Program-made: the position numbers and the translations under genes
The notes under the pieces: model-generated
What the model saw: only the letters and a program-made list of their open reading frames with translations
What the model was told of the DNA's origin: nothing
Databases searched by the model: none
Shown: one piece after another, positions 1-64,000 of the stretch
How the letters are laid out: each line of letters opens with the position of its first letter
Position numbering within the stretch: position 1 is the stretch's first letter
Source: Bacteroidales bacterium
Lineage (GTDB): Bacteria; Bacteroidota; Bacteroidia; Bacteroidales; UBA932
NCBI GenBank assembly: GCA_017443465.1
Contig: JAFRXO010000071.1
Coordinates: 1-64,000 of the forward strand
Direction: 5' to 3'
Length of the DNA: 64,000 nucleotides

Positions 1-1
1 G

Positions 2-307
2 CTTCACAAGCCCATCTACTTCGATGTTGCGGTTTCAAATGACCCGCAGGATTTCGACATACAGCCGGAAGAAACCCTTCTGCTGGAACCCGGGCGTTAC
101 TTCATCGCCTTCCAGATCGTCGGATGCGATAACGAAGCTCTACAGGCCTTCCATGCCAAAAAACAGGAGGAGCGGAAATTCTGGGAGATGAGTATGGACT
201 TCAATATCTACCTCAAGAGCAGCTATGTTAGGGAAGTGGCCCTGGGAAAGATGGAGCATCTGCCCGTCAACATCGGTGTTGCAGTTAAGGGGCTGGAGTA
301 TCGGTAA
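2..307 (+). CDS. Unidentified protein, C-terminal 101 residues (5' end outside window)
   Basis: The reading frame is open from the window edge to TAA at 305-307. The visible part alternates hydrophobic and polar residues, with short segments such as PIYFDVAVSN, GRYFIAFQIVG and MDFNIYLKSSYVREV, as in an all-beta sandwich domain. The end (LPVNIGVAVKGLEYR) looks like a final beta strand. Tyr, Phe and acidic residues are frequent, which fits an envelope or surface protein, but the signal region lies outside the window. I do not recognise the family. Only one gene end is seen, so operon context is unknown. The gene stops about 190 bp before the convergent tRNA-fMet. Confidence 0.6.
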   Translation, partial: LHKPIYFDVAVSNDPQDFDIQPEETLLLEPGRYFIAFQIVGCDNEALQAFHAKKQEERKFWEMSMDFNIYLKSSYVREVALGKMEHLPVNIGVAVKGLEYR

Positions 308-339
308 TGAGAAACCGATATAAGTAGGCATATCACGGG

Positions 340-457
340 GCGGGGGCAGGATTAATCCGCCTTCGGCGGCTTTTCCTCCTGGCGCCTCGGCAATGTGAGC
401 AAGCTCCCATTGCACTCGGCTGCTGCGTCGGTTCGAACCTTCGGTTCTCGTCCTGCC
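340..457. other. Structured, non-coding segment with UUCG hairpins and a tRNA 3'-end copy
   Basis: The 12 bases at 340-351 (GCGGGGGCAGGA) repeat exactly the 3' end of the tRNA-fMet gene at 501-512. Complementary arms at 345-351 and 451-457 (GGCAGGA / TCCTGCC) close the segment. Inside are two hairpins with a TTCG loop on the plus strand (CCGCC-TTCG-GGCGG type near 355-367; GAACC-TTCG-GGTTC type near 435-448) and a longer hairpin CAATG..GAGC..GCTC..CATTG near 393-413. No convincing ORF explains it. It may be a small structured RNA or the scar of an element that used the tRNA end. Confidence 0.45.
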
Positions 458-460
458 AAT

Positions 461-496
461 AAAAAAGATGGCTGCCAAAAGGCAACCATCTTTTTT
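461..496 (-). terminator. Intrinsic terminator after tRNA-fMet
   Basis: AAAAAAGATGG and CCATCTTTTTT form the arms of a hairpin, with inner TGCC/GGCA pairs around an AAAA loop. T-runs on both sides make it usable from either strand. On the minus strand it lies 3 nt beyond the tRNA-fMet 3' end. Confidence 0.85.
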
Positions 497-498
497 AG

Positions 499-3386: not shown

Positions 3387-4450
3387 TTCTTGGAAGCAAA
3401 AGTATAGGTAAAGCCGAACTGCAAGGCTTCGCTGAACTGAGCGATCCTGCGTCCGTTGGGATGGTCATCATCCACGATAAGCACAGTGTCATCGTAGATG
3501 AAGTTGGTGGTAAGGTTGAGAGAGAAGAACTTGCTGAGCTTCCACATCAGGCGGTTGTCCCAGTTAACCCTCAGGTTCTGAGGATTGTGAAGGTAGTTGG
3601 AGAACACCAGGATATGGGTCGAACCGGAGAAGTTGTCATTAATCTTCACCTTCGCATCGACAGTCAGCTGGGCACCGAACTCAAACCTGGCCGGACGGTA
3701 ATAATTACCGGTGATGTAATATCTCTTCTGCTCATCTTTCGCATCAGGATAGGTCTCAACGTCTTTGTACTCCCTCTTGCGCTCCATACCATAGTTCTTG
3801 CGAAGTTTCTCGTTTCCAACTATCGTGAAACCTCCGGTAAGGGGTGCGAAGTTCACGGTTAGCCACTTGTTAGGCACCCAGTCAATACCGATACCGACCG
3901 TAGCGATAGCCGGGGCGAAGAATCCGGATTTAAGCACGCGCGCATCTTTCCAGTCCTGCCTTGTGGGCTCGTCGGCAGTAGGAGTGCCATATGTGTAACC
4001 CGACGCGAACTGGTTCAGGAAAGTGAACTTAGCGGTATAACTGAGAGTCTTGGTAGCCTTGTGTCCCCAGGTACTTTCGAAAAGGATACGGTCCTTGTTC
4101 TTCTGGAGTATGGGTTTGTCTTCGGAGTACAGGAAGCCGTAGTCAAGCTGGAGACGGTTGTTCCAGTACATGTCGTCCTTCTTCCAGTTCCTGTTGCCGT
4201 CAATGTAGGTACTCAGGGAGTAGTTGTTGTATCCACCCTTCGCCCAGTTCATGAAGCTGGACTGGACAAAGTTGATGTTGGTCATCAGAGAAGACGTCCA
4301 ATATTTGGGTTTGGGTGCCTCGACCTTTACCTCAGGTGCTTCCGCGATGGCCTGTGCGGCCTCTGCAGCAGCTTTCTGCACATCTTCCTGAGCATATGCG
4401 ACCTGCCCGAATGCGGCAGCGACGGCAATGGCAAAAAATATCTTTTTCAT
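3383..4450 (-). CDS. DUF3078 envelope protein, beta-barrel-like
   Basis: A signal peptide (MKKIFFAIAVAAAFGQVAYAQ) is followed by an Ala/Glu/Pro linker. A long series of amphipathic strands rich in Trp, Tyr and Asn then runs to the aromatic C-terminal strand FGFTYTF, as in DUF3078 proteins of Bacteroidota. These are thought to be outer-membrane or periplasmic barrels of unknown role. The start chosen is the ATG directly before KKIFF. In-frame ATGs two and eight codons upstream are possible. The start region carries two tandem CATATG motifs (4448 and 4454). It lies 13 bp after proS and overlaps tilS by 4 bp. Confidence 0.85.
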   Translation of the reverse strand: MKKIFFAIAVAAAFGQVAYAQEDVQKAAAEAAQAIAEAPEVKVEAPKPKYWTSSLMTNINFVQSSFMNWAKGGYNNYSLSTYIDGNRNWKKDDMYWNNRLQLDYGFLYSEDKPILQKNKDRILFESTWGHKATKTLSYTAKFTFLNQFASGYTYGTPTADEPTRQDWKDARVLKSGFFAPAIATVGIGIDWVPNKWLTVNFAPLTGGFTIVGNEKLRKNYGMERKREYKDVETYPDAKDEQKRYYITGNYYRPARFEFGAQLTVDAKVKINDNFSGSTHILVFSNYLHNPQNLRVNWDNRLMWKLSKFFSLNLTTNFIYDDTVLIVDDDHPNGRRIAQFSEALQFGFTYTFASKK

Positions 4451-4463
4451 ATGCATATGTTTA

Positions 4464-7602: not shown

Positions 7603-9309
7603 ATGAAAAGGTTCATTATAATTACCGCGCTCTGTCTTGTAGGACAGGCTCTATGGGGCCAGACCTACTATGACGCAGAGACATTGGGTGAGAACACTTA
7701 CTACGGCACGGCCAGGTCCATAGCAATGGGCAATGCTATGACGGCAGTCGGAGGAGATCTCGGTTCCATAGGCATCAACCCCGCCGGATCGGCGGTGGCC
7801 GGCTACAGCCAGTTCACCATTACTCCGGCGATCTCGATCGCAACCTCCAAGAGCTCCTACTCCCCTGTGGCTGGCAGTCCCTACACTGACAACTACAATG
7901 ACAGGTACACCCGTTTCTCGATGCCTAACTTCGGCGTCTCGATCAACTTCAAGACATCAAACCTGAGCGGCATCAAGAACTTCACCATCGGACTGGTCGG
8001 GAATTCCACCAACAATTTCATGTCCACGATTTACGGGGGCGGAATGAATTCCCACACGACTATGGCAGGAGCATATGCAGTCGGAGCTGACGGCTATGAG
8101 AGTTCTGTCCTCGACGGTGGGAACTACAACAACTTCAATGACTGGCGCAGCATGGTAGCTTTCAGGTCAGGACTGATCTCGACCTACGGAGGCAAAACCA
8201 ACGAGTATATTGGAGTAACCGAGAAACACGACCCGGTAAGCGGCCAGACAGGGATTGCAGGACCGATCGACCAGTATTACGGACAGAGGACTTACGGAAG
8301 CAAGTACGATTACCTCTTCAACTTCGGCATGAACTTCAATGATGTATTCTACCTTGGAGGAAACCTTGGAATTACCGGAGTCAACTACCAGTACGATTAT
8401 TACATCAAGGAGTACGCACAGAATCCCGATGATTTCACCATCGAGTACGCTGACGGAACCATCCTCAAGTTCGACAATTCCCGCTACCAGTATTCTCTCA
8501 GCAACAAGGCTTCCGGAGTCTACCTCAAGGGCGGATTCATATGGAAACCCACCGAAGGGCTGAGGATCGGAGCGGCTATCCAGACTCCCACTGTCATCGA
8601 CATCACCGAGGAGAACCAGCATGCCGCACAGGTTCATTATCTCGAGGAATCCAGCAGCGAGAAGAGCAATATCAACGAATGGCATTACCGCCTCCGCACT
8701 CCCTGGCGCTGGAATGCCGGTATCGCCTACACGTTCGGCGGATTCGGAATGGTCAGTGCAGACTATGAAATGGCTGACTACAAGTCCATGAAATACAAGA
8801 CTGACATGGAAGGCAGCTATGGCAGCAACAGCGATTATGACGGAGTAAACAGGGCCATCGAACTGTTCGGAGGCCTCCAGCAGACCGTCCGCCTCGGTGC
8901 CGAGTTCAAACCGACTCCTGAATTCTCGGTACGTGCCGGTTACAATTTCTTCTCTAACCCGGAAACTGTAATGTACGACGCTGTCGGTGCAGTGACCGCC
9001 GTCACCTATCAGGACGTCTACAACGGAGACATGTCCAACAGCGAATTCTACGCTTGGGAGAACTCCCTCAGCGGTAAGGAGAAACTCAGCCGCAACAGGC
9101 ACATGGTTTCCCTGGGAATCGGCTGGTCTTCCAAAGGCTCTTTCTTCGCAGACCTAACCGGAAGGATGACTGCATTCAACAACAACTATCTTTCCCTCTA
9201 CGAAGACTACATCACTGACGCATCAGGAAATGTAACCACCTACTCCCCCGAGATCCTTTCCACTCCGAAGCTCTGGGACGTTGTCCTCACTCTCGGCTGG
9301 AGGTTCTAA
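7603..9309 (+). CDS. OmpP1/FadL-family outer-membrane protein
   Basis: A signal peptide (MKRFIIITALCLVGQALWGQ) is followed by the Bacteroidota FadL-like N-terminal pattern. ARSIAMGNAMTAVGGDLGSIGINPAGSA forms the hatch-like start, followed by many aromatic beta strands and the C-terminal strand VVLTLGWRF. At 568 residues it fits the group often annotated as a hemin receptor or hydrophobic-compound channel. The substrate is unknown; FadL relatives let hydrophobic molecules cross the outer membrane. It lies 54 bp after the repeat lipoprotein in the same direction, so the two are probably co-transcribed. A terminator follows at 9327. Confidence 0.88.
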   Translation: MKRFIIITALCLVGQALWGQTYYDAETLGENTYYGTARSIAMGNAMTAVGGDLGSIGINPAGSAVAGYSQFTITPAISIATSKSSYSPVAGSPYTDNYNDRYTRFSMPNFGVSINFKTSNLSGIKNFTIGLVGNSTNNFMSTIYGGGMNSHTTMAGAYAVGADGYESSVLDGGNYNNFNDWRSMVAFRSGLISTYGGKTNEYIGVTEKHDPVSGQTGIAGPIDQYYGQRTYGSKYDYLFNFGMNFNDVFYLGGNLGITGVNYQYDYYIKEYAQNPDDFTIEYADGTILKFDNSRYQYSLSNKASGVYLKGGFIWKPTEGLRIGAAIQTPTVIDITEENQHAAQVHYLEESSSEKSNINEWHYRLRTPWRWNAGIAYTFGGFGMVSADYEMADYKSMKYKTDMEGSYGSNSDYDGVNRAIELFGGLQQTVRLGAEFKPTPEFSVRAGYNFFSNPETVMYDAVGAVTAVTYQDVYNGDMSNSEFYAWENSLSGKEKLSRNRHMVSLGIGWSSKGSFFADLTGRMTAFNNNYLSLYEDYITDASGNVTTYSPEILSTPKLWDVVLTLGWRF

Positions 9310-44729: not shown

Positions 44730-44741
44730 GGCAACTGTGGA

Positions 44742-44948: not shown

Positions 44949-44960
44949 CGAAAAACCGAA

Positions 44961-47736: not shown

Positions 47737-47764
47737 TGCCGGATGAATTCTTGGATAATAATGC

Positions 47765-47780
47765 TAACTTTGCAAAGATA
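47765..47780. promoter_or_regulatory. Overlapping face-to-face promoters (TAACTTTG / TATCTTTG)
   Basis: TAACTTTG (plus, 47765-47772) abuts the reverse complement of TATCTTTG (minus, 47773-47780), giving TAACTTTGCAAAGATA. The plus box serves the NUDIX gene at 47790 and the minus box the START-like operon at 47736. Each predicted start falls in or near the other box, so simultaneous use seems unlikely. Confidence 0.6.
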
Positions 47781-47789
47781 GCAATTTTC

Positions 47790-48401: not shown

Positions 48402-48470
48402 AAAACCTGTCCGAAGTGAAACTTTTTCAATGGTTTCACCGTATTATAATTCCTACAGGTTTTTTTGTTA
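48401..48470 (+). promoter_or_regulatory. Nested hairpin with T-run directly before queA
   Basis: AAAAACCTGT (48401-48410) pairs with ACAGGTTTTT (48455-48464), and an inner GTGAAAC (48416-48422) pairs with GTTTCAC (48433-48439). A run of T follows, ending about 8 nt before the queA ATG. It could terminate the NUDIX transcript or act as an attenuator in the queA leader. Confidence 0.55.
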
Positions 48471-48473
48471 CAC

Positions 48474-49523: not shown

Positions 49524-49562
49524 CGCACGGAGCAAAGGAAGATACATCTTTCATAAGAAAGG

Positions 49563-49570
49563 TAAATTTG
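49563..49570 (+). promoter_or_regulatory. Possible -7 box upstream of dprA
   Basis: TAAATTTG fits TAnnTTTG without a clear -33. A transcript from here would begin at about the base of the hairpin at 49576. Confidence 0.35.
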
Positions 49571-49575
49571 TGGTG

Positions 49576-49615
49576 AAGGCCCTGTTCCCATCATTCCGGG
49601 GACAGGGCCTTTTCC
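49576..49615 (+). terminator. Terminator between queA and dprA
   Basis: AAGGCCCTGTTCC (49576-49588) pairs with GGGGACAGGGCCTT (49598-49611, one G.T pair) and TTTCC follows. It lies 52 bp after queA. Confidence 0.75.
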
Positions 49616-49652
49616 ATATTTTAGCATATGCGAAATAATAATCTGGAAAGAT

Positions 49653-50819
49653 ATGACCGGACTCGACGAACGCATATGCGTATGCGCACTTAACACCATT
49701 TTCGGCTTCAAGCCGCAGATCCCGTTGTCCCTTATGCGGACCCTCGGCAGCGCCTCGGCGGTCTTCGGACTCGACAGGGAGGCCCTCAGGGATATTTTCG
49801 GCCCATATAATACCGATGCTGACATGATCAGGCCCTCAGCCCTGGACAAGGCGGCTGATGAACTGGAAAAGATCCGACGGTACGGGGCCCGGTTCATCAC
49901 CATTGACGACCCGTCCTACCCCCAGGCACTAAAATCCTGCCCTGACCCGCCGGTAGGCCTGTATTTCAAAGGGACCGACCCGCCGGAAAAGGTGTTCGGA
50001 GAAGGGCCATTCATCTCAATTGTCGGGACGAGGGACCAGACCCCATATGGGAAAGAAATGTGTATCAGGACGGTACAGGCCCTGTCTAAGTCTTCTTCTC
50101 CTCCCGCCATCGTAAGCGGTCTGGCGCTCGGAGTGGACGTGACGGCACACTCGGCCGCACTGTCCTGCGGCCTTCCCACGATCGCAGTGATCCCGACCGG
50201 AATCGACATGGTTTACCCGTCACAGCACACCTACATAGCCGACAGGATAGTCTCAGCACCCGGAAGTGCCCTTATCACCGACTACCCTACTGACACTCCC
50301 CCGCTAAGGCCCCATTTCCTCAGGAGGAACAGGATAATCGCCGGCCTGAGCAGATGCACCGTCCTGATAGAATCGAAAGTCAAGGGCGGAGGGATGATGA
50401 CCGCGAGGCTCGCCTGGTCATATGACCGGGACGTTTTCGCTCTCCCCGGAAGGATCGATGACGTGCATTCGCAAGGCTGCAACGTGCTCATCCGGCAGAA
50501 GACAGCAGAGGCGCTCGTGGAGTTCCCGGACTTCATCAAGAGTATCGGACTGGGGAAAGCCACGCTGACGGAAGCGACTGACATAGAAGCGTGTATCGAC
50601 TCCCTGCCGGAGGCTTTGAGGCCGGTTGGCAAGATCGCACATATGAAAAAGATCGCTTCATGCATACGTTCGAACCGCGGGATCTCCGTCCAGGAGATCT
50701 GTGAAAGGACCGGGATGGAATATGCCCTGGTGTCTTCCCTGACCGGTATCCTGAGGATGGCTGGAATAATCGACATGGACCTGCTCCACAGATGTTCCAT
50801 TAATCTGAAAAATACGTAA
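49653..50819 (+). CDS. dprA: DNA-processing protein DprA
   Basis: DprA loads RecA on incoming single-stranded DNA in transformation. The 388-residue protein has an N-terminal helical part. The Rossmann-like core has FISIVGTRDQTPYGKEM, AIVSGLALGVDVTAHSAAL, IAVIPTGIDMVYPSQH, HFLRRNRIIAGLSRCTVLIE and FALPGRIDDVHSQGCN. A C-terminal winged-helix-like domain follows (SCIRSNRGISVQEICERTGM). It is present in many bacteria without known competence. It ends 24 bp before tatD, whose -7 box overlaps its stop codon. Confidence 0.95.
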   Translation: MTGLDERICVCALNTIFGFKPQIPLSLMRTLGSASAVFGLDREALRDIFGPYNTDADMIRPSALDKAADELEKIRRYGARFITIDDPSYPQALKSCPDPPVGLYFKGTDPPEKVFGEGPFISIVGTRDQTPYGKEMCIRTVQALSKSSSPPAIVSGLALGVDVTAHSAALSCGLPTIAVIPTGIDMVYPSQHTYIADRIVSAPGSALITDYPTDTPPLRPHFLRRNRIIAGLSRCTVLIESKVKGGGMMTARLAWSYDRDVFALPGRIDDVHSQGCNVLIRQKTAEALVEFPDFIKSIGLGKATLTEATDIEACIDSLPEALRPVGKIAHMKKIASCIRSNRGISVQEICERTGMEYALVSSLTGILRMAGIIDMDLLHRCSINLKNT

Positions 50820-50824
50820 ATTTG
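50817..50824 (+). promoter_or_regulatory. -7 box for tatD, overlapping the dprA stop codon
   Basis: TAAATTTG starts at the TAA of dprA (50817-50819). Transcription would start near 50831, 13 nt before the tatD ATG. Confidence 0.55.
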
Positions 50825-50843
50825 CAAGACTATACGACTGCAT

Positions 50844-51611
50844 ATGGAATTCATCGATACTCACTCCCACAATTCGGATCCGGCCTTCAAAGGCGAAGAG
50901 GATGAAGTCATCCAGAGGGCAGTCGAAGCCGGAGTCTCGGTCCTCATCCAGGCAGACATAGATTCTTCAGAGAGGGAGGCGATGTTCGAACTGGTCGGAC
51001 GCCACCCCGGGGTCCTATATCCTATGCTGGGACTCTATCCCTGTTCAGTAGATTCTGGCTGGAGGGACGAGATCGACAGCATGCTGAAGTGGAAGGACCG
51101 CGGGATAGTGGCCATCGGCGAGATCGGGCTCGACTACCATGAGACAAAGGAATTCGCCGAGGAGCAGAAGGAGGCCCTTCGCACCCAATTGGAACTGGCC
51201 TCCGAACTGGACCTTCCGGTCAGCATCCACCTGAGGGACGCCACGGAGGATTTCCTCAGGATAATCGAGGATTCCAAGGTATTGCATCTGCGCGGTATCC
51301 TCCACGCATTTTCCTCCAGCCACGAGTTCTATGAGAGGGTAGCAAGGACCGGAGACTGGTACGTGGGAATCGGAGGGGTAGTCACATTCAAGAATGCTTC
51401 GATAGCGGAAGAGATAAAGCATATCCCTCTGGACAGGATAGTCCTCGAGACTGATTCTCCGTGTCTTTCCCCCACTCCGTTCCGCGGGACCAGGAACGAA
51501 AATTCACGGATCCCGATCATCGCGGCGAAGGTCGCGGCACAGAAAGAAGTAAGCATTGAAGAAGTCGCTTCCGTCACCACGGCAAGCGCCAGAAGAATAT
51601 TCGGCATATGA
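50844..51611 (+). CDS. tatD: TatD-family metal-dependent hydrolase
   Basis: This 255-residue TIM-barrel hydrolase has metal-binding DTHSH, VAIGEIGLDYH, LPVSIHLRDA, GILHAFSSS and VLETDSPCLSPTPFRG. Members act as 3'-5' DNA exonucleases or related hydrolases. The second motif residue is Ser where Cys is common (DTHCH), which does not affect the metal ligands. The ATG lies within CATATG (50841). The stop overlaps ansA as ATGA. Confidence 0.93.
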   Translation: MEFIDTHSHNSDPAFKGEEDEVIQRAVEAGVSVLIQADIDSSEREAMFELVGRHPGVLYPMLGLYPCSVDSGWRDEIDSMLKWKDRGIVAIGEIGLDYHETKEFAEEQKEALRTQLELASELDLPVSIHLRDATEDFLRIIEDSKVLHLRGILHAFSSSHEFYERVARTGDWYVGIGGVVTFKNASIAEEIKHIPLDRIVLETDSPCLSPTPFRGTRNENSRIPIIAAKVAAQKEVSIEEVASVTTASARRIFGI

Positions 51612-52660
51612 GCACATCACCCCTGCAAGGCAGGCCGTCCATCCTGCTGATCTACACCGGAGGGACAATCGGAATGAAGGTCGATCCTTCCGACCAGACG
51701 CTGAAGCCGTTCGATTTCAGCCAGATAACTGAAGAGGTCCCTGAGCTGAGGAAGTTCGCCGGAAAGACTGACAGCATCACTTTCGACCCGCTGATAGACT
51801 CCTCCGACGTAGAACCTTCATTCTGGCAGATGCTCGCCCGCACGATCCGGGATAATTACGAAGCATATGACGGCTTCGTGATTCTGCACGGCACGGACAC
51901 TATGTCCTATTCCGCTTCCGTCCTCAGTTTCATGGTCCGCGGGCTCACCAAGCCGGTGATTTTCACCGGAAGCCAGCTCCCTGTAGGAATCCCCAGGACT
52001 GACGGGAAGGAGAACCTGGTCTCGGCGGTAGAAATCGCTGCCGCCAAAGATCCTTCCGGGCATGCCCTGGTTCCTGAAGTCTGCATCTATTTCAACGAGA
52101 AGCTGATGAGGGGGAACCGCACGACGAAGGTAAATTCCGAAGGCTTCTCCGCATTCCGGTCCCCGAATTACCCGCCCCTTGCCGAAGCCGGGATCAACAT
52201 CAGGTACAGCAACTCCCTGGTACGTTACCCCCTCTCATGGGAAGAGACCCCTTCATGGGACACGGAATTAGACACAAGGGTGTCAATCCTCAAAGTCCAT
52301 CCCGGAATCACGCCGCAGACCGTCCGGGACATCCTGCTGGGTTCGGACACAAGGGCGGTCATCATGGAAACTTTCGGTTCCGGGAACGCCCCCTCAAGAG
52401 GGTGGTTCATCGACCTGGTAAGGGAAGCGGCCGCCGAAGGCAAGATCCTCGTAAATGTGAGCCAGTGCATATGGGGAAGCGTGGATATGGGCCTGTACGC
52501 TACTGGAAGGGCGCTTCGCGAAGCCGGGGTGCTGTCAGGTTTCGACTCGACTACAGAGAGCGCACTGGGGAAACTCTTCCACCTGATGGGCATGAGCGGG
52601 GACAACGAATGGGTCAAGAAGCATATGCTCGAAAATCTGCGAGGTGAAATTGACGTATAA
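51608..52660 (+). CDS. ansA: Type I asparaginase
   Basis: The 350-residue enzyme hydrolyses asparagine to aspartate and ammonia. Both catalytic threonine regions are visible: LIYTGGTIGMKVD near the N terminus and VILHGTDTMSYSAS. IFTGSQLPVGIPRTDGKENL and the C-terminal IMETFGSGNAPS segment also match. No signal peptide, so cytoplasmic type I. Its start overlaps the tatD stop by 4 bp, and the ATG is part of CATATG (51605). Confidence 0.94.
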   Translation: MSTSPLQGRPSILLIYTGGTIGMKVDPSDQTLKPFDFSQITEEVPELRKFAGKTDSITFDPLIDSSDVEPSFWQMLARTIRDNYEAYDGFVILHGTDTMSYSASVLSFMVRGLTKPVIFTGSQLPVGIPRTDGKENLVSAVEIAAAKDPSGHALVPEVCIYFNEKLMRGNRTTKVNSEGFSAFRSPNYPPLAEAGINIRYSNSLVRYPLSWEETPSWDTELDTRVSILKVHPGITPQTVRDILLGSDTRAVIMETFGSGNAPSRGWFIDLVREAAAEGKILVNVSQCIWGSVDMGLYATGRALREAGVLSGFDSTTESALGKLFHLMGMSGDNEWVKKHMLENLRGEIDV

Positions 52661-55308: not shown

Positions 55309-55343
55309 AAAGGGAAGAATAACGCGAAACATGAATTATTTAT

Positions 55344-55351
55344 TATATTTG
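55344..55351 (+). promoter_or_regulatory. -7 box for asnS
   Basis: TATATTTG, with predicted start near 55358, 16 nt before the ATG. No clear -33 TTTG. Confidence 0.55.
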
Positions 55352-55373
55352 TAAGATTAAAAGCAATCAGGAG

Positions 55374-56774
55374 ATGGATTCTATCAAAAGAACTAAAATC
55401 AAGGACCTGCTGAAGACAGAGCCGGGCATCGAAGTGCTGGCAAAAGGCTGGGTCAGGACAAAAAGAGGCAACAAACAGGTGAAATTCATTGCCGTCAATG
55501 ACGGTTCGACGATACACAACATCCAGGTTGTAGCTCCCGCCGAGAAATTCGATGAGGAACTCATCAAGAGGATCACCACCGGCTCATCCCTTGCCGTCAA
55601 GGGGCAGCTCGTCCCCTCACCGGGCAGCGGACAGGCAGTGGAAATCCAGGCTGACGAGATCGAGGTCTACGGAGACTGCGACCCGATGCGCTATCCCCTC
55701 CAGAAGAAAGACACCTCACTGGAATACCTCCGCACCATCGCCCACCTCAGGCCCCGCACCAACACATTCGGAGCAGTTCTGAGGATCCGTCACGCAATGG
55801 CTTTCGCCATCCATAAGTTCTTCAATGACAAGGGATTCGTTTACCTCAACACCCCGCTTATCACCGAATCTGATGCTGAAGGAGCAGGTGACATGTTCGA
55901 GGTTACGACACTCAACCTGGACAATGTACCAAAGCACAACGGTAAGGTTGACTACAGCAAGGACTTCTTCGGAAAGAGGACGAGCCTGACCGTCAGCGGA
56001 CAGCTTGAAGGAGAACTCGGTGCAACCGGAGTCGGGGAAATCTACACATTCGGTCCCACCTTCCGCGCCGAGAATTCCAACACTCCCAGGCATCTCGCAG
56101 AGTTCTGGATGATAGAACCCGAAATGGCGTTCTACGACATTTCCGACAACATGGCCCTCGCCGAAGAGTTCGTGAAATACCTCGTTAAATATGCCCTTGA
56201 GAACTGCATGGATGACCTGCTCTTCCTCAATGAAAAATACGACGACGGCCTGATCGAGCGCATGCGTTCCGTCATCGAGGTAGATTTCGCCAGGGTCACC
56301 TACACCGAAGCGGTGGACATCCTCCTCAAGGCCCAGGCAGAAGGACAGACATTCGAATTCCCTGTCGCATGGGGAGTAGATTTCCAGAGCGAGCATGAGA
56401 GGTTCCTGGTCGAGAAACATTTCGGCAAGCCGGTCATCCTTACTGACTTCCCGAAAGACATCAAAGCCTTCTACATGAAGCAGAACGATGACGGAAAGAC
56501 CGTCCGCGGAATGGATGTGCTCTTCCCGAAGATCGGAGAGATCATCGGAGGAAGCGAGAGGGAGGCATCACTTGAAAAGCTTGAGAACAGGATTGATGAA
56601 CTGCATATGAGCCGTAAGAACCTGGAGTGGTACATCGACACCAGGCGCTTCGGTACCGTCCCCCACAGCGGATTCGGACTCGGATTCGAGAGGCTGCTTC
56701 TCTTCGTGACCGGTATGGCCAACATCAGGGACGTCATCCCATTCCCCAGGACTCCAAAGAACGCCGACTTCTAA
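55374..56774 (+). CDS. asnS: Asparaginyl-tRNA synthetase
   Basis: The 466-residue class IIb enzyme has an N-terminal OB anticodon-binding domain ([20 protein letters not shown]). The catalytic domain contains [38 protein letters not shown] (motif 2), [11 protein letters not shown] and the motif 3 segment [18 protein letters not shown]. It charges tRNA-Asn, so direct Asn-tRNA synthesis operates. It begins a transcript with udk and the TonB-like gene. No insert or truncation is seen. Confidence 0.96.
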
Positions 56775-56784
56775 TATCAGGATT

Positions 56785-57411
56785 ATGCTCGTTATAGGAA
56801 TAGCCGGAGGCTCCGGCTCAGGAAAGACCACAGTTGTCAACGCCATCACCAGCCAGCTCAAGGAAAAAGTGGTTGTAATCCCCCAGGATTCCTACTACAA
56901 TGATTCCAGCCACCTTCCGATGGAAGAGAGGCAGAAAATCAACTTCGACCACCCGGACGCCATAGACTGGGACCTCCTTTGCGACCAGCTCAGCCAGCTC
57001 AAGCAGGGCAAAAGCATAGAGCAGCCCATCTATTCCTACATTACCTGTTCCCGCTCCAAAACCGAAACCGTGACCGTAAAGCCGGCCGAGGTGATAATAG
57101 TGGAAGGGATCCTGATCTTTACCTGCAAGAAACTGCGTAAGCAACTGGATATCAAGATATTCGTTGATGCCGACGATGACGACCGCCTCATGCGTATCAT
57201 CACCAGGGACAACCTCGAAAGAGGAAGGAACGTAGAAGCGGTTGTGGACCACTACTCCAAGACCGTGAAGCCTATGCACCTGCAGTTCATCGAGCCCAGC
57301 AAGCGCTACGCAGACATCATTATCCCGCAAGGCGGGCACAACAAGGTTGCAATCGACATCATCTCCGCTACGATAGAAAAGACCCTTCATGAAGAAGCCA
57401 AGCAGCTCTGA
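56785..57411 (+). CDS. udk: Uridine kinase
   Basis: This 208-residue P-loop kinase phosphorylates uridine and cytidine in pyrimidine salvage. The Walker A is GIAGGSGSGKTTV (residues 5-17). The substrate region VVIPQDSYYND, NFDHPDAIDWDLL, VIIVEGILIF and the lid RDNLERGRNVEAVVDHY are intact. It starts 10 bp after asnS, and its 3' end overlaps the TonB-like gene by 23 bp. Confidence 0.95.
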   Translation: MLVIGIAGGSGSGKTTVVNAITSQLKEKVVVIPQDSYYNDSSHLPMEERQKINFDHPDAIDWDLLCDQLSQLKQGKSIEQPIYSYITCSRSKTETVTVKPAEVIIVEGILIFTCKKLRKQLDIKIFVDADDDDRLMRIITRDNLERGRNVEAVVDHYSKTVKPMHLQFIEPSKRYADIIIPQGGHNKVAIDIISATIEKTLHEEAKQL

Positions 57412-58111
57412 CAAAGCAGGCATATATCTCACAGTGATATTTCACCTCCTGGTGATAATTGTCTTGCTGCTCTGGCAGATCGGCGCCCAGCTCAAAAAAG
57501 GTGATTCTTTTGAAATCACTATCTCTGAATTCGAAAAATTCGAACGCCTTCTCGAGGTAAAGAACAAACTCGAGCAGGAAGTGGCTTACAAACAGGCCAT
57601 AAGCCAAAGGATCGATGCTGCCCTGGCTGGAACCGAGATCAGGAACATCACTACAAGCCGCAATGCCCCCCTCAAGGATGACAGGGGTACGGATGCGGAG
57701 CAATTGTACAAAGACGCTGAGAAACTGCAGAAGGACCTCAGCGGGGGCTACGAAGTGGATGAGCCCGATGATGATTATGTCCCGATGAAATCCGACAAGC
57801 AGGAGAAGAAAGCGGCCCCGAAACCTTATTCAGGCCCGTCGGTCCTGTCCTGGAACCTCGAAGGCAGAAAGGCTTCAACCCTTCCCATACCGGCCTACCG
57901 ATGCATGGGCGGCGGAGAAGTCACAGTAATCATAGGAGTGGACAAATCCGGGAAGGTAGTCTTTGCAAAAGTCCAGGAAGACACCTCATCTCCAGACCAG
58001 TGCCTGAGGAACTTTGCAATCCGCGCTGCAAGGATGTCCCGTTTCTCCTCATCGATGTCTGCTCCCGACCGTCAGATGGGAGACATTGTCTATCAATTCA
58101 TTCCGCAATAG
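57389..58111 (+). CDS. TonB-like energy transducer
   Basis: The 240-residue protein has one N-terminal membrane helix (YLTVIFHLLVIIVLLLWQIG). A charged linker with coiled-coil character (FERLLEVKNKLEQEV) and a Lys/Pro stretch follows. The TonB C-terminal domain is GGGEVTVIIGVDKSGKVVFA and CLRNFAIRAARMSRF. It would transmit proton-motive energy from ExbBD to outer-membrane transporters. It starts inside udk and is separated from exbBD by asnS. Its end overlaps the convergent regulator gene by 14 bp. Confidence 0.85.
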   Translation: MKKPSSSDKAGIYLTVIFHLLVIIVLLLWQIGAQLKKGDSFEITISEFEKFERLLEVKNKLEQEVAYKQAISQRIDAALAGTEIRNITTSRNAPLKDDRGTDAEQLYKDAEKLQKDLSGGYEVDEPDDDYVPMKSDKQEKKAAPKPYSGPSVLSWNLEGRKASTLPIPAYRCMGGGEVTVIIGVDKSGKVVFAKVQEDTSSPDQCLRNFAIRAARMSRFSSSMSAPDRQMGDIVYQFIPQ

Positions 58112-59492
58112 GAGAACCTCCCAGTCCGGAGAACAGGTTGCTTACGTACAAGGAAAGATTCGTGTCGTTAGGCCCTAGTCCGAGTTTGCTGCGTATCTTG
58201 GAGCTGATGTTATAGACATCCTTCCGAGCTACGATGTCCTGAAGCTCCTTCGTCCTGTAACCCAGCACGAAAAGGCAGCAATAGCCTATCTCATAGCGCG
58301 ACAGTCCTTTCTCTGCCAGGGCCGAGTAGAATGACGGGGAATATATGGCAAAAAGAAGTGCCAGGGTCTCAACGAATTCTCCCCTGTCAGGTGATATGCG
58401 GAGCAATTCCCTGACTGCTGACCCCAGATTGCCTGAGGCACTTCCACCGGTCATTGCAGCAAGGGAAGATATCCGCTTGCGGATTGTCTCACGTGCCTGG
58501 GCCGAAGACATGGCAGGATCCGAGAGTGGGTTGGAGGACAACCGCCTGTCATATTCCTCCTTAATAGTCATATACTCCGAACGAAGTGACTCATAACGTG
58601 CCCGGCGTTTCCGGGACAGGAAATGCCAGAGGATCCATGAGCCTGCCAGCAAAAGGAACAGGACGCCCAGCGCCGCGTACAGACGCATATTCGATCTCTC
58701 CCCCCTCTGTCTCTCGCCGGCATATGCCACATCGCTCCTGAGCGCATCCTGGAGGTCTTTCTCCTGCCTCTGGGCATATCTGGTCATATTCACCAGCGCG
58801 GAATCCACACGCCCCATGGCCCTGTCAACCTGATTCGCCAGGAAATAATACTCCGAAGGCAATCCCTGGGCAGGAGCCGGTGACAAAGCATATGTGCTCA
58901 GTGCAGAATCCGCCGCGGCCCAATTCCCGGTGTGGATGCAGCCCCGGACATATGCCAGCCAGTCAGGATCATCCTCCACTTTCAGATAACGCGCCAGTAC
59001 GGCTTCAAGAGAGTCCTGTCCGACATCGGTAGAACACATGAAATCAATCTTCTCAGCCAGGTAGCGGCCTCGCAGCGGGGCATATTTCTCCCCGGTCCAC
59101 ACCTCATATGCCCCTAGCATGCCATATGCGGCCTCGGTAGAATCTTGAACCAGATAGAGATGGGCGGCATCAAGGAGCGCAAGCCCATATGACAGGGAAT
59201 CATTTGAAGAAGAAGCATATATCAGCCTCTTCCCTGCGGCATCCATAGCCTGGGAGTAAGCATATGCGCCTTCATATACCTGCTCCAGCACCTCATAGTA
59301 TTTTATTTTCGATGAATCGGGCGCACGTGAGACGGAGCGTTCCAAACTCAGCAGTTCCCTCACGGCAGCATCATAGTTTCCGCTGTCGGCAGCCCTCTTT
59401 GCGCTTTCTACCCTTGCACCTGAATCGTCAGTCCACCTGACACAAGAAACGGCAGACAGGACAATCAGGAGGTATAGGAAGCGGCATCTCAA
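58098..59492 (-). CDS. TPR protein with membrane helix and LuxR-like HTH
   Basis: The 464-residue protein has a lipobox-like start (LIVLSAVSCVRW). A periplasmic helical-repeat part follows to about residue 265, then one membrane helix (LYAALGVLFLLLAGSWILWHFL), a cytoplasmic coiled region, and a C-terminal helix-turn-helix-like segment (LSRYEIGYCCLFVLGYRTKE, then VYNISSKIRSKLGL). Such architectures in Bacteroidota are membrane-bound regulators that sense the periplasm. The target genes are unknown. Seven CATATG sites lie in 546 bp of this gene. It is last of a five-gene minus-strand operon. Confidence 0.85.
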   Translation of the reverse strand: MRCRFLYLLIVLSAVSCVRWTDDSGARVESAKRAADSGNYDAAVRELLSLERSVSRAPDSSKIKYYEVLEQVYEGAYAYSQAMDAAGKRLIYASSSNDSLSYGLALLDAAHLYLVQDSTEAAYGMLGAYEVWTGEKYAPLRGRYLAEKIDFMCSTDVGQDSLEAVLARYLKVEDDPDWLAYVRGCIHTGNWAAADSALSTYALSPAPAQGLPSEYYFLANQVDRAMGRVDSALVNMTRYAQRQEKDLQDALRSDVAYAGERQRGERSNMRLYAALGVLFLLLAGSWILWHFLSRKRRARYESLRSEYMTIKEEYDRRLSSNPLSDPAMSSAQARETIRKRISSLAAMTGGSASGNLGSAVRELLRISPDRGEFVETLALLFAIYSPSFYSALAEKGLSRYEIGYCCLFVLGYRTKELQDIVARKDVYNISSKIRSKLGLGPNDTNLSLYVSNLFSGLGGSPIAE

Positions 59493-59500
59493 TTTACATG

Positions 59501-61099
59501 TCAGAGCTTAACCCGGGATGACGACTCCAGGGCCGTTTTGTAAGTATCGTCAGTGTCAAGATAGAAGCGGTAGAAGGCATTGTCCCCCAGCTTGGAGTAA
59601 CGGCCGACGAGAGCATATATCTGAGTCATCATATAGGCTTTTGAAGCCTGCCATTCACCGCCTTTTGGAGTGATCCCGTCACGGGAAGATGCGAAGGAAA
59701 GGAAACGAGCCTCCAGTCCGAGTCCGTCCAGATGCTTCTTGAGCTGCTGGAAATCATCTATCTTTGAAAGCTCTGCCTTGTCCTTATCGAACATATCCGA
59801 AGCAAAGCGCATCATAGTAGCCTTGCGGTTGCACTTTATGTAGAAATCGGTGGCACGGGTGGTGTCCATAGGCACAAAGACGTCAGGAATAATACCCCCG
59901 CCTCCATAAACCGTACGGCCTCCCTTGGTCGTAAATGTCTCGTCCTTATTGACTTTGATACTGTCAGCCGACAGCATCTCTCCGTCGGTGTACCTGCGGT
60001 AGATATCATTCCCATATTCTTCCGTGCCCTTGTCATATGGCTTCTGGATGCATCTCCCGGATGGAGAATAGTACCTCGCGACGGTGAGCCTTATGCCGGA
60101 TCCGTCGGTAAAATAGATCGGTTCCTGCATCACTCCCTTTCCGAAGGAGCGGCGGCCGACTATGACTCCCCTGTCATTGTCCTGGATGGCCCCGGAGAAT
60201 ATCTCGCTGGAAGAAGCGGTGTTCTCATTGATAAGGACAGAGAGTTCTACATCCCTGAGGCTTCCTTTGCCGTCAGCCTTGTACTCGTCCCTCTTCCGGT
60301 TGCGCCCCTGCGTATAGACAATCAGCTGCCCCTTGTCCAGGAACATGTCGCTCAGGAGAAGTGACTGGTCGAAATAGCCTCCTGTGTTGTCCCTCAGGTC
60401 AAAGATAAGCCGCTTCATCCCCTGCTCATGCAACTTGTCGGTAGCTGAAAGGAACTCCTTGAAAGTGGTTCTGGAGAACTTCGAGAGCCTGACATAGCCG
60501 GTGGTGTCATTAACCATGAACGAAGCATCCACGGAGTGCACCGGGATCTTACCGCGGGTTATTTCGAAAGGAATGACTGAACCGTCCCTGTTGACAGTTA
60601 CGGTAACCTTTGTCCCGGCAGGTCCTTTCATCCTCCTTACCATACTGTCCTGAGGGAATCTGACTCCGGCTATGACTTTTTCGTCCACCTTGAGTATCCT
60701 GTCTCCCGCGAGTATACCGGCCTTTTCAGAAGGCCCTCCAGCGATGACTTCGATTACCACCGCAGTGTCATTGGGAACATTGAACTGGATTCCTATGCCG
60801 TCAAAATTGCCTGCAAGCTCGGTCTCTGCCGCTTCGAGCTGGACCGGAGGCATGTAGATGGAGTGCGGATCCAGTTCGGCAAGGGCGGCGCTGACAGCTG
60901 CATCCGTCATTCCTTTCACATCCACGGTGTCAACGTAGTTCTTTCCTACCTCCTGAAGGATCAGGTTGAGCTTGCGCCATTCCCCGTAACGGGTACGCAG
61001 CATCTGTCTGCGCTGCTGATAATTCTGCACAGTCAGGGCGATGAGGATTCCGATGACTATCCCCATCAGTGCGACCCATATGGATGAGAATCTCTTCAT
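59501..61099 (-). CDS. ctpA: S41-family carboxyl-terminal processing protease
   Basis: The 532-residue protease has an N-terminal membrane anchor (WVALMGIVIGILIALTV) and a PDZ domain (GIGIQFNVPNDTAVVIEVIA, GDRILKVDEKVI). The S41 catalytic core has INENTASSSEIFSGAIQDND (nucleophile Ser) and GRRSFGKGVMQ (Lys). A C-terminal helical tail follows. It cleaves periplasmic proteins near their C terminus. It lies 1 bp after the dCMP deaminase gene and 8 bp before the regulator. Confidence 0.94.
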   Translation of the reverse strand: MKRFSSIWVALMGIVIGILIALTVQNYQQRRQMLRTRYGEWRKLNLILQEVGKNYVDTVDVKGMTDAAVSAALAELDPHSIYMPPVQLEAAETELAGNFDGIGIQFNVPNDTAVVIEVIAGGPSEKAGILAGDRILKVDEKVIAGVRFPQDSMVRRMKGPAGTKVTVTVNRDGSVIPFEITRGKIPVHSVDASFMVNDTTGYVRLSKFSRTTFKEFLSATDKLHEQGMKRLIFDLRDNTGGYFDQSLLLSDMFLDKGQLIVYTQGRNRKRDEYKADGKGSLRDVELSVLINENTASSSEIFSGAIQDNDRGVIVGRRSFGKGVMQEPIYFTDGSGIRLTVARYYSPSGRCIQKPYDKGTEEYGNDIYRRYTDGEMLSADSIKVNKDETFTTKGGRTVYGGGGIIPDVFVPMDTTRATDFYIKCNRKATMMRFASDMFDKDKAELSKIDDFQQLKKHLDGLGLEARFLSFASSRDGITPKGGEWQASKAYMMTQIYALVGRYSKLGDNAFYRFYLDTDDTYKTALESSSRVKL

Positions 61100-61100
61100 T

Positions 61101-61511
61101 TCAACCGTCTATTTTCTCAACCTCGATCCCGGCCCTGCGAAGCAGGTCCACTCCATCGGTCAAACGGTACTCGTCCCTGTAGACGACCCGCGTGATACCG
61201 GCCTGGATAATCAGTTTGGAACATTCCAGGCATGGAGATGCGGTCACGTAAAGGGTCGCCCCGCGGCTGTTGTTGCCCGATTTGGCAACCTTGGTAATTG
61301 CATTGGCCTCAGCATGAAGTACATATGGCTTGGTAACCCCGTTCTCGTCCTCGCATATGTTTTCGAATCCGGCGGGAGTGCCGTTGTATCCGTCGGAAAT
61401 GATCATATTGTCTTTCACGAGGAGGGCACCGACCTGGCGCCTCTTGCAATACGAGTTTCTGGCCCAGACTTCGGCCATTTCAATATACCTGCTGTCGAAC
61501 TTGTTGTCCAT
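61101..61511 (-). CDS. dCMP deaminase-family zinc deaminase
   Basis: The 136-residue protein has the zinc-binding deaminase motifs HAEANAI and TASPCLECSKLI, and the segment IISDGYNGTPAGFENICEDE is typical of dCMP deaminase (ComEB-like). The reaction converts dCMP to dUMP for thymidylate synthesis. The start MDNKFDSRYIEMA matches the family. A longer frame adds 59 non-homologous residues overlapping fadD. Confidence 0.93.
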   Translation of the reverse strand: MDNKFDSRYIEMAEVWARNSYCKRRQVGALLVKDNMIISDGYNGTPAGFENICEDENGVTKPYVLHAEANAITKVAKSGNNSRGATLYVTASPCLECSKLIIQAGITRVVYRDEYRLTDGVDLLRRAGIEVEKIDG

Positions 61512-61533
61512 AATTATGTTCCGGGATGGATAA

Positions 61534-63204
61534 TTAGTTCCTCTGGTAGAGGTAACGTTTGATGCTCTTCTTGGGAGTCCTCTCGAAATCCTCAGGCATG
61601 AATTCGATCTTCTTGACCTGGGCATATCCCGGTAGGAGCTTATTGATCTCGGGAAGGTCCGCCTGGAACCTGGCCTCGAGGGCTTCACTGGTCATTCCGT
61701 CAAGTTCTGCCTGATGATAATCGGGATAGATGAGAGCGGTGAGTTTGCCGTCCTCCTCGACGACGAGGGAATCGACGACATATGTCACGTTATTGATAAC
61801 AGCCTCTATCTCTTCGGGATAGATGTTCTGGCCGGAAGGACCGAGGATCATGCACTTGGACCTGCCCCTGAGGAACAGGTAACCGTCGGAGTCGATAACT
61901 CCTATATCCCCTGTACGGAACCATCCGTCCTTTGTGAAGCTGTCAGCAGTGGCCTCTGCATTCTTGAAATAGCCCATGAAAACGTTGGGGCCCTTTACCA
62001 GAACCTCGCCGGGTATATTCTGCGGATCCTCCGAGTTGATCTTAAGCTGGTTCCATGGAGCTGCCTTACCGCATGAACCCACTTTCGCTTCATTCCAATG
62101 GGCATATGCAAAGATCGGGGCTCCTTCCGTCATTCCATATCCGACCGTATAAGGGAAGCCGACCCTGTGGAAGAAGTCCTCTACCTCTGGATTGAAGGCC
62201 GCACCGCCGAGAATCACCTCCTCGAATGCGCCGCCGAAAGTCTTGTACAGTTCGTCGTGAATCTTCTTCATCAGGACCTTGTCCAGACCGGGAATCTTGA
62301 AGAACAGCTTGTTCTTGTCGATTACGGGTTTTAGCTTGGACTTGTAAATCTTCTCTATGATAAGTGGCACTGCGATGATGATTCCGGGATGGATGTCGCT
62401 GAATGCCTGCATGATTACCTTCGGGCTGGGGACCCTTGTCAGGAAATGTACATGGGCACCTATGGTCATCTCGAAAATGAATTCGTACATCAGTCCGTAC
62501 ATATGTGCGGACGGGAGCATGGAAACCACGTTGCTTTCCTTGTCCATCTGAGGCTCAGCGAGCCTGGCGAACTGGACGTTGGAGCTCAAGGCTCTGTAAG
62601 GGATCATGACTCCCTTGGAGAATCCGGAAGTACCTGACGTGTAATTGATAAGCGCGAGCTCGTCGGCAGAATCCTCATAGTAATGGATGTCATCGGGAGT
62701 GAACTCGTTCGGATAGGTACGGCCGAAAAGCTCATTGAAATGTTCGCGAGTCCGGGTTATCCTGTTGCTTCTGGAAGACAGGAGCTTGAAATTGTTGATC
62801 TGTACCGCAGCTGCGAGGCGGGGCATCTCGCTCTCCTGGAGATTATCCCATATCGCCTCATCGGTAAAGAGGACGGCCGCGTCGCTGTGGTTTACAAGAT
62901 AATGTATATTCCCTGCCTTGAACTCATGGAGGATCGGCACCGCTACAGCCCCATATGTAAGGGCCGACAGGAAAACGACACCCCAGTTCGCCTGGTTACG
63001 CGCGCATATGGCGACTTTATCCCCTTTCCTCAGGCCACAGACCCGGAATGCCACATGAAGCATGGCGATACGCATGGCCACATCCCTGTAAGCGAGGGTC
63101 GCGCCCTTGTAATTGGACAAGGCCGGACGATCCCAGTTCTCCTTGAAACTCTTTTCAAAGAGCTTGTTCAAGGATTCGAACTTAAACTCTGAATTAAACT
63201 CCAT
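61534..63204 (-). CDS. fadD: Long-chain fatty-acid-CoA ligase (AMP-binding)
   Basis: The 556-residue adenylate-forming enzyme activates fatty acids with ATP and CoA. The P-loop-like motif INYTSGTSGFSKGVMI is intact, as are MLPSAHMYGLMYE, TVGYGMTEGAPIF, WFRTGDIGVIDSDGYLFLRG and the C-terminal RTPKKSIKRY with the catalytic Lys. It is a membrane-associated cytoplasmic enzyme by family. It lies 9 bp after the long gene at the window edge. Confidence 0.93.
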   Translation of the reverse strand: MEFNSEFKFESLNKLFEKSFKENWDRPALSNYKGATLAYRDVAMRIAMLHVAFRVCGLRKGDKVAICARNQANWGVVFLSALTYGAVAVPILHEFKAGNIHYLVNHSDAAVLFTDEAIWDNLQESEMPRLAAAVQINNFKLLSSRSNRITRTREHFNELFGRTYPNEFTPDDIHYYEDSADELALINYTSGTSGFSKGVMIPYRALSSNVQFARLAEPQMDKESNVVSMLPSAHMYGLMYEFIFEMTIGAHVHFLTRVPSPKVIMQAFSDIHPGIIIAVPLIIEKIYKSKLKPVIDKNKLFFKIPGLDKVLMKKIHDELYKTFGGAFEEVILGGAAFNPEVEDFFHRVGFPYTVGYGMTEGAPIFAYAHWNEAKVGSCGKAAPWNQLKINSEDPQNIPGEVLVKGPNVFMGYFKNAEATADSFTKDGWFRTGDIGVIDSDGYLFLRGRSKCMILGPSGQNIYPEEIEAVINNVTYVVDSLVVEEDGKLTALIYPDYHQAELDGMTSEALEARFQADLPEINKLLPGYAQVKKIEFMPEDFERTPKKSIKRYLYQRN

Positions 63205-63213
63205 AAAATATGT

Positions 63214-64000
63214 TTACAATTTTATATTCCTTTCCTTGCCGTCGTAGCAGGTGACCTTTACCGAGGCACCGTCTACGGCTATCCCGCTGTCCGGGCGTAT
63301 CATCTTCTGTCCTTCGAACTTAGTCAGGGTCTCTCCTCCTTCGAAAGGATAGATGAGGGTCTGGACAGAAGTCCTTACGACCCAATACCTGCGGCCCTTG
63401 GCTTCTATAAGTTCAGGAAGGTTTTTCACCGTCTGCTGGGCTTTGATTCCCTTCCATCCCTCAGGTTTCTGGCCATGAAGGTTGTAAAGTTCCAGGCTGT
63501 TGTCCTTGTGAAGGACCATTACCCTGTAGCCCTTGGCCCCGGTGAAGTCATATACATCCGGCCCTAGGAGGACTTCCTTTCCCAGTTCGACCGGGAAACC
63601 CTTCACAAAACGCCCCAGCCTGTCGAGAAGATACAATTTCGAGGTCGAAGCGAACAGGAACTGTATCTTTCCATTGTTGTAGTAATCTACGCTTTCTACC
63701 CGGCCGCAAAGCGGGGTCTTGAACGGGATCCCCCATATGCCTTTTCCGGACATTTCCTGAAGCACGAGGTACATGTTAGGCTGCTGAAGGAGCATGTTGG
63801 ACTCTCCGGTAGCACCGTTGAGAACCTTGAAGGGACCTTTTGGTACTACCACAACTGTGTCCCGTTCTACGACAGGGGCCTTGCTCTTGACCAGATTCAT
63901 CCTGGTGACCTCAAGTCCCAGGACCGTGGCTTTCCCGTCGGCCTCGACCTTGGCAAGTATGGGGACATTCGAGACACCCTTGGCCATGGTCCTGAGTCCT
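63214..64000 (-). CDS. C-terminal part of a long protein, 5' end outside window
   Basis: The frame is open to the window edge, so the visible 262 codons are only the C-terminal part. Short beta-strand repeats (KIQFLFASTSKLYLLDRLGR, YRVMVLHKDNSLELYNLHGQ, RRYWVVRTSVQTLIYPFEGG) look like blades of a propeller. I suspect the long envelope protein often found in Bacteroidota (DUF3352-like), but this is not certain. It lies 9 bp upstream of fadD and heads the five-gene operon as seen. Confidence 0.7.
   Translation of the reverse strand, partial: GLRTMAKGVSNVPILAKVEADGKATVLGLEVTRMNLVKSKAPVVERDTVVVVPKGPFKVLNGATGESNMLLQQPNMYLVLQEMSGKGIWGIPFKTPLCGRVESVDYYNNGKIQFLFASTSKLYLLDRLGRFVKGFPVELGKEVLLGPDVYDFTGAKGYRVMVLHKDNSLELYNLHGQKPEGWKGIKAQQTVKNLPELIEAKGRRYWVVRTSVQTLIYPFEGGETLTKFEGQKMIRPDSGIAVDGASVKVTCYDGKERNIKL

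Follow-up and report, generated by a model that had tools for sequence, protein, structure and literature searches.

CATATG as a highly iterated palindrome in two sister species of Bacteroidales, possibly kept by a site-by-site bias on double-stranded DNA

The closest described counterparts of the element reported here are the highly iterated palindromes (HIPs) of cyanobacteria. HIP1 (GCGATCGC) and the alternative cyanobacterial HIPs are short palindromes that occur genome-wide at about one copy per kb or more, far over expectation, and the alternative palindromes are specific to lineages (Elhai 2015, PMC4390886, in the part of the survey drawn on here). According to the same part of the survey, every cyanobacterial genome with highly over-represented words possesses at least one putative methyltransferase for them. 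HIP1 is found across most cyanobacteria outside one group. The present element is the hexamer CATATG in a 64,000-nucleotide stretch of a Bacteroidales bacterium (positions 1 to 64,000 of contig JAFRXO010000071.1, the window hereafter) and in the genome that holds it (G000; 2,645,555 bases in 81 contigs, a bin that is 96% complete). CATATG falls within the definition of a HIP and behaves like one, without the reported partner or the reported saturation. It is a palindrome far above expectation throughout the genome, with a density near one per kb (1.84/kb in 548 kb) in coding and intergenic DNA and in all frames. It is maintained by selection or drive, since 108 of 135 site observations are conserved in a sister species, against a fraction of 0.441 for control hexamers. 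It differs from the cyanobacterial HIPs in being a hexamer with an ATAT core, in belonging to Bacteroidales and in having been observed so far in just two sister species. Neighbouring sites do not saturate. A matching methyltransferase, which is a reported association of HIPs and not part of their definition, was not found among five families searched in G000. Among the entries listed by searches of open-access papers, none reports CATATG over-representation.

The window contains exactly 112 copies of CATATG, and its base composition (53.5% G+C) leads one to expect about 13.4. An earlier note on the window, made by eye, had given about 112 and about 14, and the recount agrees. The note had also put the other three CATATN hexamers at 20-28 copies each. 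This is true for two of them (27 and 26 copies), while the third has 31. All 16 of the coordinates that it listed carry CATATG, in the frame given or outside predicted genes, and frame assignment of the 112 sites bears out its statement that the motif is found in both gene directions, in three frames and between genes (1..64000, both orientations). Forward-strand genes read 5 sites as CAT-ATG, 17 as xCA-TAT-G and 10 as xxC-ATA-TG; for reverse-strand genes the numbers are 11, 39 and 22. Eight of the 112 sites are not wholly within a predicted gene. When synonymous codons were shuffled within the 54 predicted genes (300 shuffles), 24.5±4.2 copies were obtained, with a maximum of 38, against 101 observed. 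A codon-preserving expectation of about 100 thus did not arise; the earlier note had named such a value, for a null that preserves codon pairs, as an outcome that would speak against its claim. Among all 64 palindromes of this length, compared in the window by 100 such shuffles, CATATG has a z of 17.0 and the runner-up 3.8. A null that preserves codon pairs was set aside because it retains CAT-ATG itself. A maximal-order Markov null, under which 94.5 copies are expected in the window, was dropped as circular. Most occurrences of CATAT and ATATG belong to CATATG, so this expectation is unfair.

The excess extends to the whole genome, which holds 4,230 copies of CATATG and 79 of the reversed control word, GTATAC. 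A sample of 26 readable pieces including the window (547,743 bases) has 1,010 copies, and all 24 readable stretches of 18.5-20 kb, as well as the window, have 1.45-2.55/kb. Outside the sample, the G000 contigs C6, C10, C15, C20, C45 and C70 consist of N, as do eight contigs of G580. Thus the normal density elsewhere in the genome that the earlier note had considered was not encountered. In 518 kb of coding DNA there are 932 copies against 203.6 by synonymous shuffle, an observed/expected ratio of 4.58; the same ratio is 0.43 and 1.51 in two comparison sets. One short contig, L194 (G000:C8, 6,506 bp), has one CATATG (0.15/kb), with one of nine permitted contexts converted. It probably stems from contamination or was acquired very recently.

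The bias can be measured by codon choice, comparing positions where the encoded protein permits CATATG with the same amino acids elsewhere, in each of the three frames. For His before Met (for example 49110..49115 on the forward strand, in open reading frame (ORF) 48465-49523), CAT is used in 135 of 143 cases in the G000 sample and in 1,517 of 3,131 elsewhere, a log odds ratio of 2.83±0.36. For NCx-Tyr followed by G (14147..14152, forward, ORF 13831-14979), NCA-TAT is used in 553 of 684 cases, against 123 of 887 where another base follows (3.26±0.14). For Ile after C and before TG (8538..8543, forward, ORF 7603-9309), ATA is used in 245 of 268 cases and otherwise in 1,181 of 4,304 (3.32±0.22). 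Control codons before ATG are unshifted in G000, with log odds ratios of 0.04 for TAT, -0.09 for AAT and -0.13 for GAT. The sister species, G580, gives 2.13, 3.07 and 2.77 in the His, Tyr and Ile contexts, and 2.79 when these are pooled. In total, 933 of 1,095 permitted contexts carry CATATG, or 933 of 1,173 if 78 further Ile contexts are counted in which the preceding codon could end in C and does not. Intergenic DNA behaves in the same way: the hexamer odds ratio in G000 is 5.74 there (28 sites) and 5.51 in coding DNA. Intergenic sites of the window include those at 39838..39843, at 42685..42690 and, upstream of the DprA gene (ORF 49653-50819), at 49625..49630. The likeness of the three frames, the equal odds in intergenic and coding DNA and the conservation of sites support a DNA-level force comparable in kind to HIP1, as the earlier note had proposed. 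The force acts on DNA and not on protein, and CATATG is the usual spelling wherever the protein permits it.

The force is also strong enough to shift amino acids. His-Met occurs 141 times against 87 expected in G000 and 56 times against 37 in G580, while the reverse dipeptide, Met-His, is near expectation (83/87 and 36/37). In four comparison sets the observed/expected ratio of His-Met is 0.88, 0.70, 0.83 and 1.18, the last being genome G285 (19 vs 16). Ile-Cys is likewise raised (231/140 in G000, 98/55 in G580), with 159/140 and 49/55 for Cys-Ile. Ile-Cys is raised in some comparison sets too (1.35, 1.22, 1.04 and 0.70 in the same four), which makes His-Met the clearer example. No enrichment of Ile-Trp is seen in G000 (146/146). 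Dividing the count of [ASTP]Y[AVGDE] by that of its reverse gives 1.14 and 1.11 for the two carriers, against 0.70-0.95 for the other sets.

G580 is about 85% identical to G000 in nucleotides and has 410 CATATG in 228,271 readable bases (1.80/kb). The 108 of 135 conserved observations come from 29.8 kb of alignment at 80-92% identity, each genome's sites being counted as separate observations. The same-composition hexamers at 0.441 are accompanied by other palindromes at 0.412 and flanking hexamers at 0.364. At 95-98% identity (23.2 kb), 76 of 78 sites are conserved, against 0.867. Two window blocks at 84-85% identity, taken by themselves, give 0.73 of 71 against 0.411. In the alignment of 44733..52299 (forward, 84.8% identical), 13 of 21 window sites are CATATG in G580, and in that of 55328..63999 (forward, 84%) 13 of 18 are. 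Conservation exceeds that of the codons involved. At positions where the two species encode the same amino acids, NCA is retained in 27 of 31 cases inside CATATG and 120 of 281 elsewhere, TAT in 28 of 31 and 81 of 116, and ATA in 15 of 17 and 60 of 102. From the conserved fractions of 0.80 and 0.441, site turnover is about 0.27 relative to same-composition hexamers. Under standard mutation-selection theory, a turnover of 0.27 corresponds to a bias strength, S, of about 2.2. Taken together, log odds of about 3 and this turnover fit a fixation-type bias whose S is about 2-3. Measured by codon choice, S is about 3, roughly 20-fold odds.

A third block, 29966..41104 (forward), is 98.2% identical to G580, and in its part 32502-41104 all 12 window sites are common to both species. 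Blocks at 98.2% (11.1 kb), 95.9% and 95.7% lie amid 81-92% identity elsewhere. This mosaic identity makes recombination between G000 and G580 likely, and the block at 29966-41104 is likely a recent exchange, judging from the alignment. Such recombination would be compatible with drive and is no proof of it.

The distribution of CATATG among relatives is narrow. The genus is large and uncultured, and may be Cryptobacteroides. A search with AsnRS in 400 genomes of the genus (399 matched, some of them weakly) placed G580 nearest, at 98% protein identity, and the next at 87% and below; most of these 400 genomes lack a CATATG count. Counts were made in 199 genomes of the family, 151 of the genus and 393 of the order, which are 728 distinct genomes including G000, 161 of them belonging to its genus. 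None of the other 727 is near the density of G000. The next is G224 at about 0.68/kb, with genome sizes rounded. Whole-genome counts elsewhere are 308 in 2.7 Mb (G309), 384 in 3.0 Mb (G149), 572 in 2.4 Mb (G214) and 369 in 2.7 Mb (G171), and five of the six next-nearest genomes after G580 have 0.05-0.20/kb (20 kb each). Counting in the complete genome and its relatives, as proposed in the earlier note, thus gives a high value for G000 and far lower ones for the 727 others. Since G000 and G580 carry the CATATG state and the nearest other relatives examined do not, it appears to have been gained on their common stem. It looks recent. Avoidance of CATATG in the nearest relatives, which would be a flip of sign, is not claimed because in part it reflects a wider scarcity of GATATG and TATATG in these genomes. 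The same relatives (L146-L150) use CAT, GAT and TAT only rarely before ATG, which is not so for AAT.

Genome G285 was considered as a weaker carrier (log odds ratio 1.45) and rejected, for AAT, GAT and TAT before ATG are shifted there too and CATG is avoided. Words with CATG are nearly gone from it (CACATG 1 against 14 expected, CATGTG 1 against 11), CATATG is more frequent and NAT codons are almost obligatory before ATG (L092, L093 and L221-L224). The scarcity of CATG in G285 would be the pattern expected of restriction avoidance. Among 86 stretches of more than 15 kb from other genomes, with palindromes seen at least 15 times listed, only ATATAT in L014 approaches the weakest of the G000 stretches (25 vs 7.7, z 6.3). 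The next palindrome elsewhere has a z of 4.4, and 20 of the CATATG stretches of G000 have z of 6.5-13.7. ACCGGT has a half-site odds ratio of 4.7-5.8 in three Bacteroidota loci (L038, L020 and L051), with 12-13 copies each. It is possible that ACCGGT in these loci and ATATAT in L014 are weaker iterated palindromes.

The arrangement of the sites in G000 is informative. Of the permitted contexts whose next site lies 6-50 bp away, a fraction of 0.82 is converted (0.818 of 165); at 50-800 bp the fraction is 0.86-0.89. Two sites even abut directly at 4448..4459 (4448 and 4454) and at 28259..28270 (28259 and 28265). Neighbouring sites do not compete within 800 bp, although some regions lag. This lack of competition disfavours functions for which a single site in each stretch would be enough, among them repair access in Elhai's model, uptake and chromosome spacing. 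Across 224 kb of G000, with the window included, the gaps between sites are exponential (381 gaps, coefficient of variation 1.07), which is random spacing. Over the same 224 kb, no flanking position holds more than 0.045 bit; G is weakly preferred before the site and C after it.

The hexamers one change away were also examined. None is emptied, the lowest symmetrised observed/expected ratio being 0.60 in G000 and 0.46 in G580. TATATG/CATATA occurs 145 times against 99.3 expected in G000 (1.46) and 43 times against 34.5 in G580. In 131 unconverted Tyr contexts, the other codon pairs keep roughly their baseline proportions (compared by hand), so no single precursor has been drained. With genus genomes as the baseline, most inner one-off variants are reduced and outer ones are near par, as expected because it is mainly the inner changes that are synonymous. 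An excess of the outer variants (NATATG) as a sign of partial recognition, which the first comparison of these hexamers had suggested, is not confirmed with this baseline, though the codon-context comparison still hints at CATATA. The His contexts differ by a transition only and the Ile contexts by transversions only, and both are biased with similar strength. The bias is thus not tied to one mismatch type.

A solitary methyltransferase was one of the causes that the earlier note had named and proposed to look for. PF01555, PF02384, PF02086 and PF00145 have no match in G000; matches are present in 11 of 30, 11 of 23, 10 of 21 and 7 of 21 searched genomes, respectively. PF07669 has two matches in G000, both sub-threshold, and 17 of 23 genomes match it, 10 of them above cut-off. 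These two weak matches were rejected as the cognate enzyme because Pfam reads them as PrmC and an MTS-domain methyltransferase. The search for MT-A70 (PF05063) matched 0 of 35 genomes, with the controls silent too. A DNA methyltransferase is likely absent from the G000 bin across the five families searched there, and the candidate of the earlier note was not found above cut-off. The motif [DNS]PP[YFWH] is carried by 7 of 445 predicted proteins of the G000 sample and by none of 196 from G580. Four of the seven were set aside as PrmC, an MTS-domain methyltransferase, a PF03602 protein and an HU-CCDC81 protein by Pfam, while the remaining three seem to match by chance. The pattern is not that of a Type II restriction-modification site either, as CATATG is strongly favoured and no methyltransferase was found in the five families. 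GTCGAC is scarce in the coding DNA of G000 (24 vs 82.6 by synonymous shuffle), though no DNA methyltransferase was found. CRISPR arrays, a route to the phages of the host, had no candidate in the sample.

Several explanations of the bias were weighed. A by-product of codon usage, codon-pair preference, mRNA-level effects or avoidance of a word such as CATG has a probability close to nil. That such an effect exists is seen in G285, where CATG is avoided and CATATG raised. However, the AAT, GAT and TAT codons before ATG that are all shifted in G285 are unshifted in G000, its Tyr and Ile contexts are affected where CATG has no role, and intergenic DNA shows the same odds ratio; shifted contexts with unshifted controls and equal intergenic odds are hardly expected of a codon or RNA cause. 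Mutation that depends on context would act on all DNA alike, as is observed, and so would a Vsr-like short-patch repair limited to one mismatch type; this explanation is nonetheless highly improbable. Very short patch repair by Vsr is sequence-specific and shifts word frequencies genome-wide, but it corrects only T:G in one context. For CATATG, the bias is similar in transitions and in transversions, and none of the one-off hexamers has been emptied; TATATG/CATATA, the T:G precursor, is depleted in neither G000 nor G580. A repair model with a single mismatch type is thus largely refuted. Chi sites are recognised by the recombination machinery, are strand-biased and are common to several genera. 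DNA uptake sequences have motifs of about 9-12 bp. Chi of E. coli (GCTGGTGG) is likewise an over-represented short word (PMC1939737, in the part drawn on here), but it is non-palindromic, whereas CATATG is a palindrome and is limited to a single small lineage. An uptake signal was another of the causes named in the earlier note; that CATATG is a DNA uptake sequence, spread through biased natural transformation, is very unlikely. The uptake sequences of Neisseriaceae and Pasteurellaceae (DUS/USS) resemble it in their thousands of copies, in their conservation amid permissive, varying flanks and in being ascribed to a DNA-level drive or selection (PMC1939737, PMC2397512, as far as these sources were drawn on). 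A DprA gene is present in the window, and G000 and G580 have long near-identical blocks in common. Yet uptake sequences are longer, non-palindromic and described as evenly spaced (PMC1939737, same part), and CATATG is a palindrome of 6 bp that is randomly spaced and has flanks nearly free of information. There is also no clear loss of strength beside another site, though one site per fragment should do. A solitary CATATG-specific DNA methyltransferase that misdirects mismatch repair, as Elhai proposed for the cyanobacterial HIPs, is unlikely, though with direct selection it is one of the two chief rivals of the preferred reading. The rule that a HIP has such a partner is not strict, as four HIP1-rich strains are without a recognisable CGATCG methyltransferase (PMC4390886, in the part drawn on here). 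Against a methyltransferase, the five families have no match above cut-off in G000 and do match some relatives and control genomes. Moreover, in Elhai's model saturation sets in at about one site per kb, according to the same part of that source, and neighbouring sites do not compete here.

Direct selection, in which each CATATG binds an abundant dimeric protein, nucleoid-associated or regulatory, with a small gain in fitness from each site, is a serious contender although unlikely. A palindrome suits a dimer, the equilibrium and the turnover fit S of about 2-3, and even protein sequence is bent. A protein of chromosome organisation, a further candidate of the earlier note, was not found, although one may be involved. 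On the other hand, no clear diminishing return is seen below 50 bp (the 0.818 of 165 against 0.86-0.89), the odds ratio is equal in intergenic and coding DNA, there is no spacing pattern and more than 4,000 independent small benefits are required. The preferred reading, held tentatively and at somewhat less than an even chance, is that the palindrome is upheld by a site-by-site bias on double-stranded DNA that works through local conversion. A putative symmetric protein that recognises CATATG would have been gained on the stem of the G000 and G580 lineage. It would make heteroduplexes formed in repair or recombination resolve to the strand that reads CATATG. Such a local conversion bias would resemble gene-conversion drive, with the difference that it is specific to one sequence, and it would be independent of mismatch type. 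Several points weigh against local conversion or against parts of it. The factor is putative, and selection on a bound protein with an independent benefit at each site predicts the same equilibrium patterns. The sole pointer to recombination is the mosaic identity with G580. The control codons TAT, AAT and GAT before ATG are shifted in the opposite direction in G580 (-0.62, -0.34 and -0.92). The density of CATATG is lower in intergenic DNA (1.02 vs 1.78/kb). More than 800 bp from the next site, conversion drops to 0.629 of 35 and 0.50 of 4. L194 was rejected as the cause, since without it the first value is unchanged and the second becomes 0.667 of 3. Strength varies somewhat by region, with gene-level overdispersion at p 0.052. 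The exactness of the target is not clean either. After NCA, TAT is favoured also before A (log odds ratio 2.29 in G000 and 2.79 in G580; 0.99±0.52 and 0.23±0.23 in comparison sets), which suggests that CATATA may also be favoured, although CATATA is not raised relative to genus genomes.

Two further observations concern the window. Its longest run without CATATG is 52622-56603 (about 4 kb), where putative ExbB/ExbD-like and AsnRS genes are located; strong codon selection is possibly the cause. The word CTAG is scarce, with 14 copies against 68.6 expected.

The presence of HIP1 in most cyanobacteria makes its origin difficult to observe. The CATATG state looks recent and is carried by two species that are about 85% identical, so its gain, its maintenance and the gene responsible could be mapped by comparison. 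The codon-context odds ratios provide a measure of strength that can be used on any genome, and the raised dipeptides indicate that a DNA-level force is able to alter the proteome. Should the bias work without a methyltransferase, the model that ascribes HIPs to such enzymes needs to be revised. In its fullest form, the preferred reading is a methylation-independent, site-autonomous drive to one hexamer that fills 80-85% of the permitted positions and bends proteins while the sites themselves have no function. This form is possible but rather doubtful. If true, such a drive would parallel biased gene conversion in a sequence-specific form.

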